Assembly (NCBI GenBank): GCA_947425245.1 | Contig: CANDYU010000005.1 | Span: 1 to 64,000, forward strand | Direction of reading: 5' to 3' | DNA from: an uncultured Candidatus Saccharibacteria bacterium | GTDB lineage: Bacteria > Patescibacteriota > Saccharimonadia > Saccharimonadales > Saccharimonadaceae | DNA length: 64,000 nucleotides | Notes under the pieces: model-generated | The model's database searches: none | Told to the model about the DNA's origin: nothing | Seen by the model: the letters and a program-made list of their open reading frames with translations, nothing else | Program-made: the position numbers and the translations under genes | Shown here: one piece after another, positions 8,740-60,372 of the stretch | Numbering within the stretch: position 1 is the stretch's first letter | How the letters are laid out: each line of letters starts with the position of its first letter

Positions 8740-8768
8740 TTGACTTTTTTGCTAATGTGTGCTACAAT
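8740..8768 (+). promoter_or_regulatory. Family promoter copy 2 (TTGACT-17-TACAAT)
   Basis: TTGACT at 8740-8745, then TTTT, a 17-bp spacer ending GTGC, and TACAAT at 8763-8768. The 19 bases from TGTGC onward are the same as in copy 7 inside nifU. Confidence 0.8.
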
Positions 8769-16033: not shown

Positions 16034-16062
16034 TTGACTTTTTCAAGAATGTGTGCTATAAT
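16034..16062 (+). promoter_or_regulatory. Family promoter copy 3 (TTGACT-17-TATAAT)
   Basis: TTGACT at 16034-16039, TTTT, a 17-bp spacer ending GTGC, and TATAAT at 16057-16062. The only thing downstream is a short structured stretch with a tiny ORF and a terminator. Confidence 0.8.
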
Positions 16063-16068
16063 TAAGAT

Positions 16069-16245
16069 AAGCATAATAGTGTGCTAGTATTTTAGTGAAG
16101 AGATGATGTTTCACATCAGAAGAAGGGTTTTGATGAAAGGAGTATGTAAGGAAGTGCTACCGACAGTGGGAGCCGCCGCTGAAGCGGAAGAGACGAGTCA
16201 CTGGCATTAGCAACTCGCCCTAGCTTTTAGGCCGGGGCTTTTTCT
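16069..16245 (+). ncRNA. Candidate small RNA or micro-ORF transcript of about 175 nt
   Basis: Family promoter copy 3 and a terminator delimit this unit. It contains a small hairpin (TGATG, loop TTTCA, CATCA at about 16105-16119), a CCGC-TGAA-GCGG hairpin near 16175-16186, and CAGTG/CACTG arms that could enclose it. A 25-residue ORF (ATG 16133 to TAG 16210, reading KGVCKEVLPTVG and ending EETSHWH) has AGAAGGG 5 bp upstream. Either a small RNA or a micro-protein is possible. I see no match to SRP, 6S, tmRNA or RNase P RNA motifs. Confidence 0.4.
16217..16243 (+). terminator. Terminator of the copy 3 transcript
   Basis: GCCCTAGC (16217-16224) pairs imperfectly with GCCGGGGC (16231-16238) and is followed by TTTTTCTT. 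Confidence 0.65.
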
Positions 16246-16253
16246 TGTGAAGA

Positions 16254-18314: not shown

Positions 18315-18343
18315 TTGACTTTTTTGATGAACCGTGGTATAAT
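18315..18343 (+). promoter_or_regulatory. Family promoter copy 4, facing a terminator
   Basis: TTGACT at 18315-18320, TTTT, a 17-bp spacer ending GTGG, and TATAAT at 18338-18343. The expected transcript starts near 18350 and meets a terminator hairpin at 18359, so it would be under 40 nt long. Confidence 0.75.
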
Positions 18344-18358
18344 TGTATATAGACTGCC

Positions 18359-18386
18359 AAAAGACCCGACATATGCCGGGTCTTTT
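18359..18386. terminator. Bidirectional terminator between tig and family promoter 4
   Basis: AAAAGACCCG (18359-18368) and CGGGTCTTTT (18377-18386) form a perfect 10-bp stem with A- and T-runs on both sides. It ends tig transcription on the minus strand and also faces the promoter at 18315 on the plus strand. Confidence 0.85.
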
Positions 18387-21521: not shown

Positions 21522-21550
21522 TTGACTTTTTAAAGAAAGTGTGGTACAAT
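21522..21550 (+). promoter_or_regulatory. Family promoter copy 5 (TTGACT-17-TACAAT)
   Basis: TTGACT at 21522-21527, TTTT, a 17-bp spacer ending GTGG, and TACAAT at 21545-21550. The ATG of the small gene lies 6 bp after the -10, so its message would be leaderless. Confidence 0.8.
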
Positions 21551-21556
21551 GAGAGG

Positions 21557-21748
21557 ATGAGGTCTTTTTCTTTTCATGAACGAGTTCCTAAGAAATGTTG
21601 GGTAGGGGACCAGCAGAAAGTTTGTTATGCTTCGCGTGAGGAGGCGGAGGCGGCAGCACTGGTTGCACAACATGACTATGGGGCACCAGAGTTGACAGTA
21701 TATCATTGTGAATACGGCGATCATTGGCATCTAAGCTCTCATCGTTAG
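21557..21748 (+). CDS. Small Cys/His protein, leaderless, overlapping the cutinase gene
   Basis: The 63-residue protein RSFSFHERVPKKCW (after Met) contains KVCYASREEAEAAA and ends VYHCEYGDHWHLSSHR. The layout (basic start, CYASREEAE, then HCEYGDHWHL) resembles small putative zinc-binding proteins of actinobacteria and phages that end in C-x-x-C-x-x-WHL, but here only one Cys remains in the last motif. The strong promoter exactly 6 bp before the ATG supports expression. It overlaps the 3' end of the cutinase-VWA reading frame on the other strand by 161 bp. The function is unknown. Confidence 0.65.
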   Translation: MRSFSFHERVPKKCWVGDQQKVCYASREEAEAAALVAQHDYGAPELTVYHCEYGDHWHLSSHR

Positions 21749-24149
21749 GGTGTTTAAAGAACTGTTGAATCTTGCTAAGCATATGTTCGTAAGGCCAGTA
21801 GCCAGTGTTAGGTGCTTTTGGAATGTAGCCTAGATTAGAGCTGGAGGACTGAATATTATCAGTTGTCACTTGGTTGGGAAGGCTAGTAGAGGGATTGGGA
21901 TATTCAGTGTCAGATCCTTGAGATGGTTCAGTTGGCTGGGGCCCTTGATTATTTCCTGAATTATCAGGGTTTGAACCGGGATGATTTTCATTGTCTGGGT
22001 CGGTTTTATCGGGCTTGTCCGAATTATTGGGATTATTGTCGTCAGGATTATTACCGGGGGTTTCACTGGAGTTGTCATCAGGAGACTCTGGCAGTGTCGG
22101 TGGAGTTCCTTGAGTGTCATTATCCTCCTTGTTATCGCCATCATTGTCTTGGTCGTACCAGTTGTCGGTATTGAGGTCCTGACTGGGCTGGCCAATTTCA
22201 AATTCTCCATTAGGTTTTAGGGTGACACTGGCGGAAAGGCCGCGTTCGCTACCTTCCGATGTACCAGTTTTTGAATAAGCAGTAAGCGTTAGGTTACTAT
22301 TTGCAGTGATGTCTTTAACTCTAATATACGGACGGCTACTCGGTTCTTCAAAGCCCATAATTGTACCGTTTAACGACACGAGCACGCCCAAACCGTCCGT
22401 TTCATAGTCAACGCGATAATATTCCCCCTTACTGACGAATTCGACATTGGTAATTTTAACCTGAGCTAGTTCGAGGAGATTCTCCATCACGTCAATCTTA
22501 GCGGACATAGTACTAAATCGGCCCTCCTCATCAGTTACTTTAACCTGGATATAGCCACTGAGAGGATTAGTATAACCATGCGAGATAATCGGTCCAGCGT
22601 CCTGCGTTTCAAAGATTCCATCGCAGTCTAAATCCCAGTCGTAGCGGACAATCTTAGAGAGGCCAATGGTTGTTGAATCTGAGGCGTCAAAGTAAAAGTC
22701 TTGATTGATGAAGCCGCTATAATTCTCTAAGGCCAGCTTCGCGATTGGTCGGCCGGCAATCTCCGAAAGATATAAATCAGGTTCGTCGATAAGGTAATAT
22801 ACTTTACCATTGGTCCTGTCACTAAGTTCTTGATATTCAGCTATATATTGAGGATGCATGACCAAAGTATATACATTCACTGGGTCGATAGATAAACTGA
22901 GTTTAACGATATCCTCCAATTGAGCTTTATTACCATCGAGATTTTCTAGATTGGGACTAGCAGTAATAACTGCAACTGATTTTGTGGCACCAATTTGCCA
23001 GTCGACAGAACGCATAGCAAAGTCTAATGCCGAGAAAACCGGTTCCCCAAAGACATGGTGACCGCCATCTAGTACTTGGGTAGCCTTTGTTAGGCTTTCC
23101 GCAAACTCTCTAGCATCACAGCTGAAGTCACAGATCATTTTGATATTGTCTTCCTTGGGATACTTATAGGTGAAAAGGGCTACCCTTCCGCCCAGACTAC
23201 GGATTCTGTAAGCAAGCTGCTGAGCTTGATCGCGATAGAGCGAAGCGTACTTTAGCATACTTCCGCTGACGTCAAAGAGAATGATTAAGTCGTGGGTTGA
23301 GGCGACGGTAGATGGGTCGGAAGTTGGCAATTTAGGAAAAGTAGCTCGAATCTTATTAGAAATTACTTCGGCCGCGTTTTTATATAGGCCATTTCTGACA
23401 TATGAGGTATGGTCATCGACACTGACGCCAGAACTACACATTATGTCACGATCATTACACCAAACTCCAAGCTTACCAGTATAACCAGTAGGTTGATAGG
23501 GATTTCTGCCACCCAAAATACCTTTGTAGGCATGACAGTCGGATACATAAGCACGGTAATCTGACAAGTTTTTACCAGAGCAAGCATCTGGCATGCGACC
23601 TTGTCCTTCCGGAAAGTAAGCCTTCGGGTCGCCGAAGTTGGCAACATAAATGATTTTCTTGGGGTCGATTTTAGATAGCGACATCGTGTTCACCATAGCC
23701 CCCTGAGAGTAGCCGCCTAGGACATACTTGGTTTGAGGACAAAGGCTAGAGTAATGATTAATATAAGCTATCAACTCATTAGAACCTTCGACAACGCTAG
23801 CACCAAACTGAAAGGCTGATCCTGCACTGACATATGCTCCGATTAAGTTACCTATGCCTGCCCATGACCCGGCCACAGCTACGGCGGGATACTGGTATTC
23901 AGAATTAGAGTCACTGCCAAGCTCAAAGTAGCTATACCGCAAGTCTAAACCATAGAGCATGTAGTCTAAACTGTATTGCCAGGCTTCATAGCTAGAATCG
24001 TTAAGGCTTTCACCCGACCCACGGGCAAAAATAATTTTTACTTCATCACATTTTTGATCGTTTTGGTCGGCATATGCGGCAATACCGGGGCACAGACTCG
24101 TACTAATAATTAGGCAGGTAGCAAAAAGTATGCGGGACAACTTTATCAT
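21588..24149 (-). CDS. Secreted cutinase-like hydrolase fused to a VWA domain
   Basis: The 853-residue protein has a signal peptide (1-27). A cutinase/serine-esterase domain (about 30-270) follows, with KIIFARGSGES, the lipase box GGYSQGA and a later D/H region (CNDRDIMC, DDHTSYVRNG). A von Willebrand A domain comes next, with the MIDAS motif FDVSGSM near 295. PKD-like beta domains (YDWDLDCDGIF) and a long Asn/Asp/Pro/Ser-rich stretch (about 660-780) follow. Near the end APNTG resembles a sorting-type motif but no terminal membrane helix follows it. The frame continues 50 residues opposite the small gene at 21557, so the true C-terminus may have been replaced. RBS AGGAGA precedes the ATG. A role in degrading host surface esters or in adhesion is inferred. 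Confidence 0.85.
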   Translation of the reverse strand: MIKLSRILFATCLIISTSLCPGIAAYADQNDQKCDEVKIIFARGSGESLNDSSYEAWQYSLDYMLYGLDLRYSYFELGSDSNSEYQYPAVAVAGSWAGIGNLIGAYVSAGSAFQFGASVVEGSNELIAYINHYSSLCPQTKYVLGGYSQGAMVNTMSLSKIDPKKIIYVANFGDPKAYFPEGQGRMPDACSGKNLSDYRAYVSDCHAYKGILGGRNPYQPTGYTGKLGVWCNDRDIMCSSGVSVDDHTSYVRNGLYKNAAEVISNKIRATFPKLPTSDPSTVASTHDLIILFDVSGSMLKYASLYRDQAQQLAYRIRSLGGRVALFTYKYPKEDNIKMICDFSCDAREFAESLTKATQVLDGGHHVFGEPVFSALDFAMRSVDWQIGATKSVAVITASPNLENLDGNKAQLEDIVKLSLSIDPVNVYTLVMHPQYIAEYQELSDRTNGKVYYLIDEPDLYLSEIAGRPIAKLALENYSGFINQDFYFDASDSTTIGLSKIVRYDWDLDCDGIFETQDAGPIISHGYTNPLSGYIQVKVTDEEGRFSTMSAKIDVMENLLELAQVKITNVEFVSKGEYYRVDYETDGLGVLVSLNGTIMGFEEPSSRPYIRVKDITANSNLTLTAYSKTGTSEGSERGLSASVTLKPNGEFEIGQPSQDLNTDNWYDQDNDGDNKEDNDTQGTPPTLPESPDDNSSETPGNNPDDNNPNNSDKPDKTDPDNENHPGSNPDNSGNNQGPQPTEPSQGSDTEYPNPSTSLPNQVTTDNIQSSSSNLGYIPKAPNTGYWPYEHMLSKIQQFFKHPNDESLDANDRRIHNDILSTLVPHSHVVQPVLPPPPPHAKHNKLSAGPLPNIS

Positions 24150-36496: not shown

Positions 36497-36525
36497 TTGA
36501 CTTTTTGAAAAATCTGTGCTATAAT
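36497..36525 (+). promoter_or_regulatory. Family promoter copy 6 (TTGACT-17-TATAAT)
   Basis: TTGACT at 36497-36502, TTTT, a spacer ending GTGC, and TATAAT at 36520-36525. It drives the VUT-family transporter gene. Confidence 0.85.
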
Positions 36526-36560
36526 GTAATAATAAGGGGGATTTTTGTACCTTAAATATT
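36497..36560 (+). repeat. Duplicated promoter-leader, copy A
   Basis: This 64-bp stretch from TTGACT to AAATATT matches 59297-59360 with a single difference (G or A near the GGGG run). The match resumes at TTTGGAGGTGGCG and at the codons for MTQ-x-x-EKR, although the two downstream proteins are otherwise unrelated. Confidence 0.9.
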
Positions 36561-36575
36561 CTTTGGAGGTGGCGT

Positions 36576-37334
36576 ATGATGACGCAAAGGACAGAAAAGA
36601 GGACGGGATTTTTGAATGCTATTTTGAATTGTCTCGGCATTGGAGACAGGCTGCGAGATCCTGATCCGATGAACTCGAGGGTGACAGGTGTACTGATAGC
36701 CATGACGGCTACCCTTAGCGTGGTACTGATCGTGAGTAACTTGGCAGCACTAAAGATTTGGACGTTAGCCTCGATACCTGTAGACGCGGGGATTTTATTG
36801 TTCCCTATTTCCTATATTGTGGGTGACCTGCTCGTCAATATCTATGGCCTAAAAGTCGCGAATCTGGTGGCGGCATGGTCTGCTTTACTGGCGGTGATGT
36901 CGACCGGGGTCCTATGGGTTGCGAAGACGATTTTACCAGGTTATCCTGGTGCGGACAACATGGCATTCATGGTCGTACAGGCTACACTAGGAAGGATTTT
37001 CTTAGCCAGCGTGGCGGGCTTTCTGCTTAGCCAGATTTTGAACAATCGTGTTTTTGTGTTGATGCGTTTGCGTTCTGAGCAAGTGGATAACTTTAGACGC
37101 CGGGCCATTATTTCCTCAGCCGTAGCAAGAATTGCAGATGTGGCGGTATTTGAGATCTTGGCATTTTTAGGCAAGCTCTCGCTGGGCGAATTCTTAACAC
37201 AAGCCTTGTTCGCATATTTTGCCGGTGTCGTAATTGAGCTTGCTGTGAGCGGGCTGACTACGCGGCTCGCAGAGAAGCTGGACCGAGCGTTAAACTATAG
37301 TGACGGCCATGATTTGAGCCACCAACCACATTAA
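36576..37334 (+). CDS. VUT family queuosine-precursor transporter (YhhQ-like)
   Basis: The 252-residue protein has about six membrane helices and the family pattern VLIVSNLAALKIW, PVDAGILLFPISYIVGDLLVN and IYGLKVAN (about residues 48-105), with the conserved acidic residues in the GD of VGDLLVNIYG. YhhQ/QueT-like carriers import queuosine precursors. tgt lies 0.8 kb downstream on the same strand, which fits salvage of queuine-type bases. The start follows GGAGGTGGCG. The first ten codons are shared with the unrelated gene at 59383. A strong terminator follows. Confidence 0.85.
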   Translation: MMTQRTEKRTGFLNAILNCLGIGDRLRDPDPMNSRVTGVLIAMTATLSVVLIVSNLAALKIWTLASIPVDAGILLFPISYIVGDLLVNIYGLKVANLVAAWSALLAVMSTGVLWVAKTILPGYPGADNMAFMVVQATLGRIFLASVAGFLLSQILNNRVFVLMRLRSEQVDNFRRRAIISSAVARIADVAVFEILAFLGKLSLGEFLTQALFAYFAGVVIELAVSGLTTRLAEKLDRALNYSDGHDLSHQPH

Positions 37335-49985: not shown

Positions 49986-50504
49986 TTAACGCTGATTGCG
50001 AAAATTGGCAATTGCCGCGGCGAGTGCTTCGTGACCTAAGACTGAACAGTGAAACTTATGCTGGGGAAGGCCACCAAGGAACTTGGTAATCTCGACGGGG
50101 CCGACTTGGAGTGCTTCATCCAGGGTTTTACCTTTGACAAGCTCGGAAAGTGCTGAGGTGGAAGCGATAGCGCTAGCACAGCCATAGGTCTTCCATTTAA
50201 CATCCGCAATACGGCCATCCGCAATCTGTAAGAACATTCTCATTTGGTCGCCGCAAACCGGATTACCAACCGTCCCCTCGGCGTCATAAGGATATTTAGA
50301 CTCATCCCCCATAAGGAAATTGCGGGGAGATAAAAAATGCTCTTTGACGATTTCTGAGTATACCCAACTAGGGCCAGAATAGGTGCTAGGTGATGAGTTG
50401 GACGGGGTAGACTGGTTTGAAGCACAACTACTATTGACTTTTTGTGTATTCTGTGCTACAATGAAATTATGGGGTTCATTTGAACGCTTACCTTGGTTTT
50501 TCAT
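49986..50504 (-). CDS. Fe-S cluster scaffold protein (IscU/SUF-U/NifU N-type)
   Basis: Residues 48-172 are an IscU-type scaffold: YSEIVKEHFLSPRN, then NPVCGDQMRM (first Cys with the following Asp), YGCASAIASTSALS (second Cys) and HKFHCSVLGHEAL (third Cys). It assembles iron-sulfur clusters with the NifS-like desulfurase encoded upstream. The first 45 residues (KNQGKRSNEPHNFIVAQ and a Ser/Asn/Thr-rich linker) are extra and are encoded by the complement of a complete family promoter (copy 7). The ATG has AGGAGA upstream and overlaps the end of the desulfurase gene by 17 bp. Confidence 0.92.
   Translation of the reverse strand: MKNQGKRSNEPHNFIVAQNTQKVNSSCASNQSTPSNSSPSTYSGPSWVYSEIVKEHFLSPRNFLMGDESKYPYDAEGTVGNPVCGDQMRMFLQIADGRIADVKWKTYGCASAIASTSALSELVKGKTLDEALQVGPVEITKFLGGLPQHKFHCSVLGHEALAAAIANFRNQR
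50434..50462 (+). promoter_or_regulatory. Family promoter copy 7, antisense inside the scaffold gene
   Basis: TTGACT at 50434-50439, TTTT, a 17-bp spacer ending GTGC, and TACAAT at 50457-50462, on the plus strand. Its transcript would run antisense across the start of the scaffold gene and into the desulfurase gene. Confidence 0.7.
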
Positions 50505-51657
50505 GGGATTCTCCTAATTTTATGGTACTCATACCTTGCAGTCTGGCAATGATTTTTGGTAAAACCGACATAACTCGGTCTATATCAGCAGGGGTAGTTT
50601 CTAGTCCGAACGAGAAGCGAATACTGCTATGGGCGATTTCGGCGTCGTGATGAAGGGCCATGAGGACATGGCTCGGTTCAAGGTCGCCCGAAGCACAGGC
50701 TGAGCCGGTCGAAACGATAACATCGTCAGCATCTAGATAAAGCTGGATTGATTCCCCTTCGGCAGCCCGAAAACTCATGTTTAGGATATTGGGCAAGCAG
50801 CCATGATCAGGACTATTGCAACTGCTGTACGGGATGGTTTGGAGGATGCGGGACTTGAGCTGATCGCGTAGGGTGGCAACTTCGACCCATTTTTTACAGC
50901 TCCAGTTGTCCCAGCACCATTGTGCTGCAGCACCAAAACCAGCAATGGCAGCAGTATTGGTCGTGCCGGCACGGCGAAGATGTTCTTGATGTCCGCCGAT
51001 AATCAATGGCTTGAATGGGACGCCCTGACGGACATAGAGTGCACCGATACCGATTGGTCCACCAATCTTATGGGCAGAAATAGTCAGATAGTCAACACCG
51101 AGAGCCTGAACATCAATCTTAATTTTCCCAAGAGCCTGGGTCGCATCACTATGTAAGTAAACTGGTTTATCGCTAGCTTGAAGAGCACGGGAGAACTCAG
51201 AGACCGGCTGGATAGTGCCGATTTCATTGTTAGCCAGCATAATTGAAAAAAGGTTTACTCCAAGCTGGGAGGCGTGGCTAATCTCGCCCATATCGACTCT
51301 ACCAAATTGATCAACTGGTAGCTCGATAACTTCACTGGCCCTAGCCCTGGACGACTCTAGGACTGACGGGTGTTCGATGCTCGAGACGGCGATTTTTTGG
51401 CCACGGAAAGTTTCAGTGACGGTATTGTTGGATTCGCTGCCACCGGAGGTAAAAATAATTTCCTCCGGGCTGGCATTGATGAGTTTCGCTACGGCAGACC
51501 TAGCGTCTTCGACGATATTTTGAGCGGCGTGGCCGGGCGAGTGAAGCGAGGAGGCGTTGCCAAAGGTACCATCTAATACTTCGAGCATGGCAGTGCGAGC
51601 CACGGGCAATAAGGGCGAGGTGGCGGCATGGTCAAGATAGGTAACTGAAGGTTTCAT
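50488..51657 (-). CDS. Cysteine desulfurase (NifS/IscS family)
   Basis: The 389-residue PLP enzyme starts YLDHAATSPL and has FTSGGSESNN, SSIEHPSVLES, LHSDATQALG, the PLP lysine in SAHKIGGPIGIGAL (about 207), and the catalytic Cys in STGSACASGDLEPSHV (about 325-335). It takes sulfur from cysteine for Fe-S clusters and probably tRNA thiolation. It is in the same operon as the radical-SAM activase NrdG, which needs a 4Fe-4S cluster. Its ATG overlaps the stop of the small ORF upstream (ATGA). Confidence 0.94.
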   Translation of the reverse strand: MKPSVTYLDHAATSPLLPVARTAMLEVLDGTFGNASSLHSPGHAAQNIVEDARSAVAKLINASPEEIIFTSGGSESNNTVTETFRGQKIAVSSIEHPSVLESSRARASEVIELPVDQFGRVDMGEISHASQLGVNLFSIMLANNEIGTIQPVSEFSRALQASDKPVYLHSDATQALGKIKIDVQALGVDYLTISAHKIGGPIGIGALYVRQGVPFKPLIIGGHQEHLRRAGTTNTAAIAGFGAAAQWCWDNWSCKKWVEVATLRDQLKSRILQTIPYSSCNSPDHGCLPNILNMSFRAAEGESIQLYLDADDVIVSTGSACASGDLEPSHVLMALHHDAEIAHSSIRFSFGLETTPADIDRVMSVLPKIIARLQGMSTIKLGESHEKPR

Positions 51658-51764
51658 TGAGCCTCAATCCATTGTTCGAGGCGACTAATCATGGCGGACT
51701 CTGAAAGCTCGGTAACTTGTTTAGGTGCTTTTACGGGATGTGATTTGCATGTCTTAGTATTCAT
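51654..51764 (-). CDS. 36-residue small ORF between folA and nifS
   Basis: The ORF reads MNTKTCKSHPVKAPK, then QVTELSESAMISRLE, then QWIEAQ. Its ATG overlaps the folA stop and its TGA overlaps the nifS ATG, both as ATGA, and AAGGAAG lies before the start. Coupling on both sides strongly suggests that it is translated. The C-terminal half would form one amphipathic helix. No family is recognised. Confidence 0.6.
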   Translation of the reverse strand: MNTKTCKSHPVKAPKQVTELSESAMISRLEQWIEAQ

Positions 51765-52246
51765 GGCTTCCTTTTGGTATATTCTACAATTTGGTATTTA
51801 GTACCGTCCGATTCGCCGGTTCGCAGGACGGTTTTTTGATATTTACTATGATCAAACGAGGGGAAAAAGGTGTCGGCTGGTTTTTTGCCGTCAACCTCGG
51901 TGAGGTAGAGGCGGTCGGCTTGACTCATGAACATCTGATAGAGTGAGGCTCCGCCGATGATGAAGACTTCCGTATCTTGTTGCGAAAGGTAGTTTTCGAG
52001 ATCTGTTTGATTAGTAAAACTGAGGATGTTCTGATCAGTAATAGGCAGACGCGACAGGACAATATTTTGACGCTTGGGAAGCGGCCGGCCAATGCTGCGG
52101 TAAGTGGCTCCTCCCATGACGACTGGGTGTCCCATAGTGGTCTTCCGGAAAAACTGCATGTCTTCGGGAATGTGCCAGAGAAGCTGTCCGGATTTTCCTA
52201 GGCCACCGTCTTTGCTGATACAGGCAATTAGCGTTAGGACTCTCAT
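51761..52246 (-). CDS. folA: Dihydrofolate reductase
   Basis: The 161-residue protein starts RVLTLIACISKDGGLGKSG after Met and has LLWHIPEDMQFFRKTTMGHPVVMGGATYRSIGRPLP in the usual order (shorter parts: WHIPEDMQFF, VVMGGATYRSIGRPLP) and VFIIGGASLYQMFM. The active-site acidic residue is the Glu-Asp pair in WHIPED. It regenerates tetrahydrofolate, which thyA in this window consumes. It is in the nrdDG-nifSU operon and overlaps both neighbours by 4 bp. Confidence 0.95.
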   Translation of the reverse strand: MRVLTLIACISKDGGLGKSGQLLWHIPEDMQFFRKTTMGHPVVMGGATYRSIGRPLPKRQNIVLSRLPITDQNILSFTNQTDLENYLSQQDTEVFIIGGASLYQMFMSQADRLYLTEVDGKKPADTFFPSFDHSKYQKTVLRTGESDGTKYQIVEYTKRKP

Positions 52247-52662
52247 GATTTTTCTCCTTTGATTGAATGTTGCTGTTTATCAAGATGTGCGATCGTCTTC
52301 AGATTAGCACGCAAGAAGTTCGTGAGATCCTCGGGATTATTAGCTTCGGGATGACGCAAGACATGACCAAGCATTTTTTGTAGGGCTAGATCTATTGCAC
52401 TACCTTCGAGTTGCACAACATCACCACGCCTGGTCGTGTTAACTTTACGTACGTCATCACTACTAAGGGCTAGGTCAGACAGTCGGTATGGTCGAGTGGT
52501 AGTAATGTCTTGATAAATTACTTGGCATTGACGGATTTTTGCCGCGGCCGGCGTAGCTAATTCTGGGTTCTGGGCGGCCTTATCGGCAAGTTTTAAAGCA
52601 ATCAACTCTTCAAACAAGCTAGCGTCGATATCCGGATTCTTCTCGATAACTTCGCCTGCCAT
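52243..52662 (-). CDS. Hypothetical protein between nrdG and folA
   Basis: I do not recognise this soluble, mostly helical 139-residue protein. Landmarks are ASLFEELIALKLADKAAQN, a central PYRLSDLALSSDDVRKVN and the C-terminal FLRANLKTIAHLDKQQ. It overlaps nrdG by one base and folA by four, so it is translationally coupled within the deoxynucleotide operon. A role near nucleotide or folate metabolism is inferred from position only. Confidence 0.7.
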   Translation of the reverse strand: MAGEVIEKNPDIDASLFEELIALKLADKAAQNPELATPAAAKIRQCQVIYQDITTTRPYRLSDLALSSDDVRKVNTTRRGDVVQLEGSAIDLALQKMLGHVLRHPEANNPEDLTNFLRANLKTIAHLDKQQHSIKGEKS

Positions 52663-53156
52663 TATTCTTGCCTCAGGATTTTTCCGGTACCTTTTTCAAG
52701 ATACAGGAGTCTTTGATTACGGGAGCCGCGGAATTTCATCGTTAAATCGCGTTCAGCGAGGATAAATGGCCCATCAATTAGAGCGTCGAGACATTTAACA
52801 AATTCCCACTTCGCTCCGCCGATCTCCTTAAGCTGCTCATATGTATAGCCGCTGAAACTCCAGACATTCCAGCCAAGTTTCTGACGGCACCAATCGGCTA
52901 TTTCTTTACAGGCTTCGGGCTGTTCAAAGGGTTCGCCGCCACAAAAGGTGATGCCGGTTTGACCTCTAAACTCTCTGAGCTTCTTTTTAATGTCTTCGAG
53001 ATCAACGAGGAAGCCGCCATCAAAGCTCCAGGTTTCAGGATTTTGGCAACCCGGGCAGTGCCGGGCACACCCTTGCGTCCAGAGGACAGCACGCAGACCA
53101 TCACCATTTACAATGCTGTCGCGTTCGAGTGGCCCGGAGAGTCTAATTTCTGCCAC
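52662..53156 (-). CDS. nrdG: Anaerobic ribonucleotide reductase activating protein
   Basis: The 164-residue radical-SAM protein has the cluster motif C-ARH-C-PG-C in QGCARHCPGCQNPETW (about residues 29-44), FDGG, and TGITFCGGEPFEQPEA. It uses a 4Fe-4S cluster and S-adenosylmethionine to create the glycyl radical on NrdD. It follows nrdD by 3 bp. Confidence 0.95.
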   Translation of the reverse strand: MAEIRLSGPLERDSIVNGDGLRAVLWTQGCARHCPGCQNPETWSFDGGFLVDLEDIKKKLREFRGQTGITFCGGEPFEQPEACKEIADWCRQKLGWNVWSFSGYTYEQLKEIGGAKWEFVKCLDALIDGPFILAERDLTMKFRGSRNQRLLYLEKGTGKILRQE

Positions 53157-59296: not shown

Positions 59297-59325
59297 TTGA
59301 CTTTTTGAAAAATCTGTGCTATAAT
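59297..59325 (+). promoter_or_regulatory. Family promoter copy 8 (TTGACT-17-TATAAT)
   Basis: TTGACT at 59297-59302, TTTT, a spacer ending GTGC, and TATAAT at 59320-59325, identical to copy 6. Confidence 0.85.
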
Positions 59326-59360
59326 GTAATAATAAGGGAGATTTTTGTACCTTAAATATT
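59297..59360 (+). repeat. Duplicated promoter-leader, copy B
   Basis: This 64-bp stretch matches 36497-36560 with one difference. It is followed by a shared TTTGGAGGTGGCG RBS region and shared first codons. Confidence 0.9.
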
Positions 59361-59382
59361 TATATTTGGAGGTGGCGTATTA

Positions 59383-60372
59383 ATGATAATGACGCAAAAG
59401 GCAGAAAAACGAATGAAGCAGGGCTATGCCATAACAAGATTTTGGCCTATGACAAGCCCAATGAAGGCTGAGAGCGAGCTGCTAGCTATAGCGACTGGTT
59501 GGGCGGGATATGAGATTCCTGACATAAAAGAATTGGTCTTCCTGGGGAAGGCGAATCTAGCAGTGATTTATCAAAACCACATGACGACTTCTCGCGAACT
59601 AAGGAAGCATCGCAGGAAGCTGAAAGAAACCGTAGAACGACTAAAGGACACTTCGGCGTTACGCTTGAAGGCTCGAATGAAGTCATATACTATGTGCGAC
59701 TTCGTAGGCGAAGACTACGGTAAGTTAGCTCCGGGGGAAATCGAAGACCTAAGTCTTAAGCAGATTCAAGAACGGCAAAGTCGCAATGCTCGGAAGATAA
59801 GGCGGGGATGTCGGTTTGGGCCATTTGTGTCAAAATGGTGTGTTCGGTCACCGCATTGCCGAACGCTGAAAAGTAACGGCGGCAAGGGCTGCGAGATGTG
59901 TGGCTACTGCAAGGAAGGCTCAGAACGACCGATATGCATCTTTGCAACCATACAGGGCGGAGAGATGCTGAGGAACTGTATCGCCCGATTGGATACCGAC
60001 CTGAGTTATCTCGACGTCGCAATCCAGAAGATTGACGAGTTTTTGAAACGCCTCAGGATAGCACGAAAGAAAGCCGAGGCAAAACGGTCGGTATTTGCGA
60101 TTTGGCGACAATGCAACCATTTTAGAGTGGGCGATCGAGTAGTAGTGGCAGAGACGAGTCAACCAAGATCGTCGGCACAGCTGGCAACTGTGAAGGCTTT
60201 CCAACAGCTCGTGTCGACTGCTCAGGATGGGTTGCGGATTGCTGTGATAGTGCAGACGGATGACGGGGAGAAATTGACAATTCCAAGTCGTAGTCCAGAA
60301 ATAATGCTCGAGGAGGAGTATTACTACTTCTTGAAGCACCGAAATTATGCGAAGCTATGGGCACTCGCATAG
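59383..60372 (+). CDS. Hypothetical Cys-rich protein under a duplicated leader
   Basis: I do not recognise this 329-residue soluble protein. After MTQKAEKR, which it shares with the VUT transporter gene, it has a helical charged region (SRELRKHRRKLKETVERLK). A Cys-rich part follows (about 145-190: CRFGPFVSKWCVRSPHC, then CEMCGYCKEGSERPIC) that could bind zinc. The last third is SH3-like (FRVGDRVVVAE, then VIVQTDDGEKLTIPS). The start follows GGAGGTGGCG; an ATG two codons later is equally good. A terminator closes the unit. Confidence 0.7.
   Translation: MIMTQKAEKRMKQGYAITRFWPMTSPMKAESELLAIATGWAGYEIPDIKELVFLGKANLAVIYQNHMTTSRELRKHRRKLKETVERLKDTSALRLKARMKSYTMCDFVGEDYGKLAPGEIEDLSLKQIQERQSRNARKIRRGCRFGPFVSKWCVRSPHCRTLKSNGGKGCEMCGYCKEGSERPICIFATIQGGEMLRNCIARLDTDLSYLDVAIQKIDEFLKRLRIARKKAEAKRSVFAIWRQCNHFRVGDRVVVAETSQPRSSAQLATVKAFQQLVSTAQDGLRIAVIVQTDDGEKLTIPSRSPEIMLEEEYYYFLKHRNYAKLWALA

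Follow-up and report, generated by a model that had tools for sequence, protein, structure and literature searches.

A candidate antisense promoter that doubles as coding sequence in the iscU gene of a Saccharibacteria genome

The DNA analysed here, referred to as the window, is a 64,000-nucleotide stretch of an 882-kb Saccharibacteria genome (G000) from a genus with 174 species. Within it, a nifS-type cysteine desulfurase gene and iscU lie on the minus strand with overlapping ends, and a sigma70-type promoter sequence lies antisense inside iscU (Table 1). The promoter falls in an N-terminal extension of the scaffold protein, whose residues 11–24 (PHNFIVAQNTQKVN) are its complement. A sequence-only reading of this locus had described a 45-residue extension partly encoded by the promoter; the promoter-encoded residues are indeed there, and the length should be 46 residues before Trp47. 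Since no other in-frame ATG, GTG or TTG precedes the domain and AGGAG stands 6 nt before the ATG at 50504, a start past the promoter can be set aside and the extension is very probably translated. Its composition suggests that it may be disordered.

Table 1. Coordinates of the predicted features at the nifS-iscU junction
Feature	Position	Strand	Remarks
iscU (NifU_N scaffold protein)	49986..50504	-	172 aa; NifU_N domain from residue 49
N-terminal extension, residues 1-46	50367..50504	-	Ser/Asn-rich
Core promoter	50434..50462	+	TTGACTTTTTGTGTATTCTGTGCTACAAT; relaxed family pattern matched exactly
-35 TTGACT	50434-50439	+	followed by T-tract
Extended -10 TGTGC	50452-50456	+	within 17-bp spacer
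-10 TACAAT	50457-50462	+	
Discriminator GAAATT and initial transcribed region ATGGGG	50463..50474	+	predicted +1 = A at 50469
Antisense RNA 5' end, predicted (first 40 nt)	50469..50508	+	weak hairpin, MFE -8.8 kcal/mol, z -1.5
iscU ribosome-binding site AGGAG	50511..50515	-	6 nt before ATG 50504
nifS-type cysteine desulfurase	50488..51657	-	overlaps iscU start by 17 nt

The main strong sigma70-type promoter family of this genome has the consensus TTGACTTTTT-N8-TGTGNTAYAAT, then GGAAGT/ATAGGG, the latter part being an extension drawn from ~150 copies, with A at +1 (the first base after the slash) in 91% of them. Allowing at most three mismatches, the family pattern finds 9 sites in the window as compared to 0.01 expected from window shuffles. 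Exact sites number 16 in the genome as a whole, and a looser pattern finds 4 to 60 sites per genome in 21 genomes of the genus, where the reversed pattern has zero matches. Scored with a weight matrix of 41 positions trained on 139 non-antisense copies, the site at 50434 reaches 50.2 of 63.9 and ranks fourth in the window, against a best score of 10.3 in the reversed-sequence control. The full family member spans 50434-50474, and its bases from -6 to +6, GAAATT/ATGGGG, score 11.6 bits, above the intergenic mean of 9.0, even though these 12 flanking positions lie outside every search pattern. The 19 bases that it had been said to share with copy 2 at 8740 (TGTGCTACAATGAAATTAT) were reconfirmed. 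The iscU copy passes every sequence test as a true promoter of the sigma70-type family that is strongest in this genome, which bears out the earlier claim that a full family promoter lies antisense in the Fe-S scaffold gene. Our literature search turned up no description of Saccharibacteria promoters or antisense RNA.

Most family copies are intergenic, usually ahead of a gene. The iscU copy is not intergenic and has no same-direction gene: the next plus-strand gene starts 8914 nt away. Every intragenic copy counted was antisense; candidates for sense-oriented intragenic copies proved to be either spurious reading frames or frames that stay open ahead of the true start, none of them convincing. 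A hairpin at the RNA 5' end is weak on average across the family (z -0.7, n 153). The strict copies in the window (1165 to 59297) are all on the plus strand (8/8), though most genes are on the minus strand. At 16034-16250, a family promoter with no listed gene is followed by a possible ORF of 25 codons and a hairpin resembling a terminator, and its product is possibly a small RNA or a leader peptide. At 18315-18385, a strong terminator-like hairpin (AAAGACCCGACATATGCCGGGTCTTTT) lies within ~15 nt of a family-like promoter, and its transcript would be very short. At 21522-21748, a promoter precedes a leaderless 63-aa ORF at 21557 (MRSFSFHERVPKKCW...YHCEYGDHWHLSSHR) that reads in antisense into the 3' end of a cutinase-domain gene (21588-24149); this promoter and its upstream region are found again in G210 (L265).

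The predicted RNA from the iscU copy has a 5' end complementary to iscU codons 1–12 and to the bases just ahead of the start codon. An antisense RNA over the nifS/nifU junction had been proposed, and a transcript from 50469 would indeed pass over both the start codon and the ribosome-binding site of iscU as well as the 3' end of nifS. No intrinsic terminator is predicted in the plus direction from 50469 to 52700, and no conserved structure was found for the antisense RNA.

Comparison of ~107 iscU loci in the genus revealed that most of these genes start 3–15 residues ahead of the domain, in agreement with the earlier statement that ordinary IscU has no such extension. An antisense promoter in the extension was found at three of these loci: G000 and two deeply diverged species, G210 and G211, in which an exact family promoter lies antisense and in the same frame (extensions MSQSENTPHTSIIAQNCEKVNTK... 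and ...PDPHGFIVAHIGKKVNRK..., respectively). The predicted antisense start falls 36 nt inside iscU in G000, ~25 nt in G210 and ~80 nt in G211. The most similar iscU relatives, G041 and G014, have Ser/Asn/Ala-rich extensions of 28 and 40 residues without a promoter, and the interval between the nifS stop codon and Trp47 is of comparable length in all three (88 nt in G041, 128 nt in G014, 121 nt in G000). The comparison of orthologous N termini called for by the sequence-only reading gave a mixed answer, with the promoter present in G210 and G211 and an extension without it in the nearest relatives; the orthologues do not all share an extension free of promoter DNA. G000, G210 and G211 are not grouped together by the nifS+iscU tree (AU p 0.03, a weak test), and on a four-gene tree the copy requires three changes; the iscU copy may therefore reflect repeated gain, or else retention with frequent loss. 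Two neighbouring arrangements were also seen at iscU: in G019 (L045) an exact family promoter just downstream of the gene is directed into its 3' end, and in the early-branching G212 (L053) nifS and iscU are separated by a small membrane-protein ORF that has their orientation.

Antisense copies occur in other genes as well, in a survey of parts of five genomes and of fixed gene sets from fifteen. G211 has five exact copies antisense within genes: iscU, a FemAB-type gene, a GT4 glycosyltransferase gene, the NAD-ligase gene ligA and a UPF0020-type methyltransferase gene; its locus L259, where the site lies ahead of the signal peptide of a secreted protein, was excluded as ambiguous. The ligA copy is present in three species (G211, G212, G013) and the GT4 copy in four (G211, G212, G024, G057). 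G212 and G013 each carry a copy in a second cysteine desulfurase gene, distinct from the iscU-adjacent nifS, and a copy in this gene was found in 10/15 species, always between LRQ and FLGNPKHQL. Seven of the ten are exact (G013, G024, G210, G041, G209, G014, G212) and three are degenerate: TTGACA replaces TTGACT in G040 and G213, and only the extended -10 is intact in G057. In G213 the T-tract is lost while the -35 reads TTGACA, so that the functional hexamers survive. The second desulfurase of G000 has no copy. In these sequences, the antisense promoter is conserved in position, in three species for iscU and most strongly in the second desulfurase.

The desulfurase segment is longer with the promoter than without it (p 0.006), and in other host genes the promoter segment falls on extra loop residues that promoter-free orthologues do not have; promoter-free orthologous sites exist for iscU, ligA/GT4 and the second desulfurase. 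Thirteen sites from the five-genome screen fall in six genes, giving 10 between-species coincidences as compared to ~0.1 expected for random genes, a figure that is our own estimate and assumes ~700 genes and independent insertion. A second pass without greedy ORF choice added no clear case beyond the desulfurase copy of G210, and 83 copies in further genomes of the genus, inside and outside the sub-clade, included one convincing antisense case, in prmC of G009 (L448). The residues encoded there look native (ITLIISHLLEKVKDG), and the promoter possibly arose in coding DNA without an insert. The upstream neighbours of the host genes examined are on the same strand, which removes an ordinary divergent gene as the promoter's target; no gene runs in the same direction at these sites, and the host genes have no conserved antisense ORF, the lengths and sequences differing between species.

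The flanking bases of 14 antisense copies average 10.7 bits, as compared to 9.0 for intergenic copies and -13.0 for the coding background (p ~5e-11); the weakest, in GT4 of G024, scores 3.6 bits. In the second desulfurase, the codons ATT, ATA or GTA, GCA, AAA and GTC appear in nearly every species, and those fixed by the promoter are uncommon within their own families (ATA 15%, GCA 13%, GTA 14%; p ~2e-3 to 6e-3 per species, in a test that is conditional on prior detection of the sites and uses species that are not independent). Moreover, the GT4 copy of G057 lies in another frame and encodes LYHTSGKKSI as against HYSTHxxKSQ in the other GT4 copies. Because the flanks match, synonymous codons follow the promoter and one copy is frame-shifted, DNA rather than peptide is maintained, a conservation that the protein does not explain. 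On the same three grounds, the recurring peptide PHTSIIAQNxEKVN is most readily understood as a by-product of the promoter encoded on the opposite strand. One might instead suppose that this peptide is selected as a short linear motif and its promoter likeness incidental, given that it appears in IscU, the second desulfurase, the FemAB-type protein and the methyltransferase, but inserts of the same type yield HYSTHxxKSQ in ligA and GT4, or LYHTSGKKSI in G057, and the same DNA fronts dozens of genes as ordinary promoters; with codon choice also tracking the promoter, we regard selection for the peptide as highly improbable. Nor is it likely that promoter-like DNA simply drifted up as noise within a low-constraint linker. 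Bacterial species often do not share their antisense promoters (PMC3847290), the complement is open in 2/3 frames, and prmC of G009 is a natural-looking case; however, close to zero random matches are expected, the -6 to +6 bases fit too, and position is kept across species in several genes, so drift is given a very small chance.

How the segments came to lie in these genes bears on a further alternative. The sequence-only reading took the iscU extension to be consistent with in-frame insertion of a promoter cassette, an idea that is only partly supported. Against it, G041 and G014 have the extension without the promoter, and when a 101-bp iscU stretch was compared with the whole genome, the other copies matched the core, at most query positions 10–56 in the better matches, with no similarity of the iscU copy to the others beyond that core; in favour of insertion are the recurrence in G210 and G211 and the extra loops elsewhere. 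Because G210 and G211 share the iscU copy and promoter segments in other genes coincide with extra loop residues, some link between residue gain and promoter gain is real. Rickettsia palindromic elements, 100–150-bp repeats of non-coding type, likewise sit in frame at tolerant places within conserved protein genes; the segments described here differ in being non-palindromic, with a 41-bp promoter consensus in one orientation whose promoter bases are kept. Recombination or duplication might spread promoter segments into loops that tolerate in-frame residues, with firing a tolerated by-product of no regulatory role. The family does duplicate with its surroundings: the copies at 36497-36597 and 59297-59407 agree almost completely in promoter, leader, ribosome-binding site and first codons (64 nt at 98%, then small gaps) ahead of unrelated genes, one for a Vut_1 vitamin-uptake transporter and one for a protein without a Pfam match, and by sequence this pair is a recent duplication of an expression cassette. 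Some G211 copies share 110–160 bp at ~73–86% identity, the ligA and GT4 inserts of that genome are alike beyond the core (42% over 43 residues), and the inserts sit in variable segments. Yet the same few genes are hit in different species far beyond expectation, no target duplications or terminal repeats were noticed, and old copies retain exactly the promoter bases; spread with mere tolerance is a reading that we hold to be rather unlikely. The promoter might also serve a small antisense gene or a defined small RNA, as window copies drive short products such as the leaderless ORF at 21557 and several antisense copies have ATG at +1. In iscU, however, the frames that begin at that ATG run for just 4, 14 and 26 codons in the three species and do not resemble one another, longer antisense ORFs are unlike between species and no terminator is predicted downstream, which leaves such a product a slim prospect.

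The explanation that we favour, and consider probable from the sequence comparisons, is that the iscU copy is a dual-use promoter that fires against nifS-iscU and lowers iscU, as one of a small class in a Saccharibacteria sub-clade. The class would occupy dispensable linkers or loops in iscU, the second cysteine desulfurase, ligA, GT4, the FemAB-type gene and the UPF0020-type methyltransferase gene, where the coding strand need only stay open and the opposite strand would hold the promoter bases. In iscU, the promoter would send RNA polymerase and an antisense RNA against the operon; the RNA would pass over the iscU start and ribosome-binding site, and polymerase collision together with RNA pairing would lower or delay iscU relative to nifS. 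We infer that the antisense copies are transcribed and that their effect is repression.

Known systems offer partial parallels. In E. coli, repression by an antisense promoter scales with how strong the promoter is (PMC4731013), and strength-proportional repression by collision and RNA pairing, as in cis-antisense RNA and transcriptional interference, would be expected here; unlike the quantified E. coli interference, the present case is read from sequence, and its sites lie inside coding sequence, near the 5' end in iscU. Between Campylobacter and Helicobacter, the position of an antisense promoter is kept in 2/46 shared genes (PMC3847290). The clpB antisense promoter of Epsilonproteobacteria resembles the class described here in being sigma70-type, antisense and in the same place in orthologues of several species, with peptide and promoter sharing DNA. 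It is conserved where the protein itself is conserved (PMC3847290), so its DNA conservation may be a by-product, whereas here the segments are extra and variable and the surrounding peptide is not conserved. Also unlike clpB, one promoter family here has copies in several unrelated genes.

It has long been asked whether bacterial antisense transcription is chiefly noise or frequently under selection. Reports of antisense promoters with conserved positions are few, and such promoters are rare in the best comparison that we found. Here deeply diverged species carry a sharply defined 41-bp signature antisense in the same extra loops of shared genes, with one change of frame, and the antisense copies provide a clean, testable set of dual-use sequences. 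They also urge caution, as an opposite-strand promoter can show up as a protein insert such as PHTSIIAQNxEKVN. A broader and doubtful extension, which we put forward as a long way from likely, is a two-sided regulon in which intergenic copies activate some 20–50 genes while antisense copies in loops damp iscU, the second desulfurase, ligA and the glycosyltransferase. If true, one sigma70-type signal would produce opposite responses, with no transcription factor, in the reduced genome of an epibiont.
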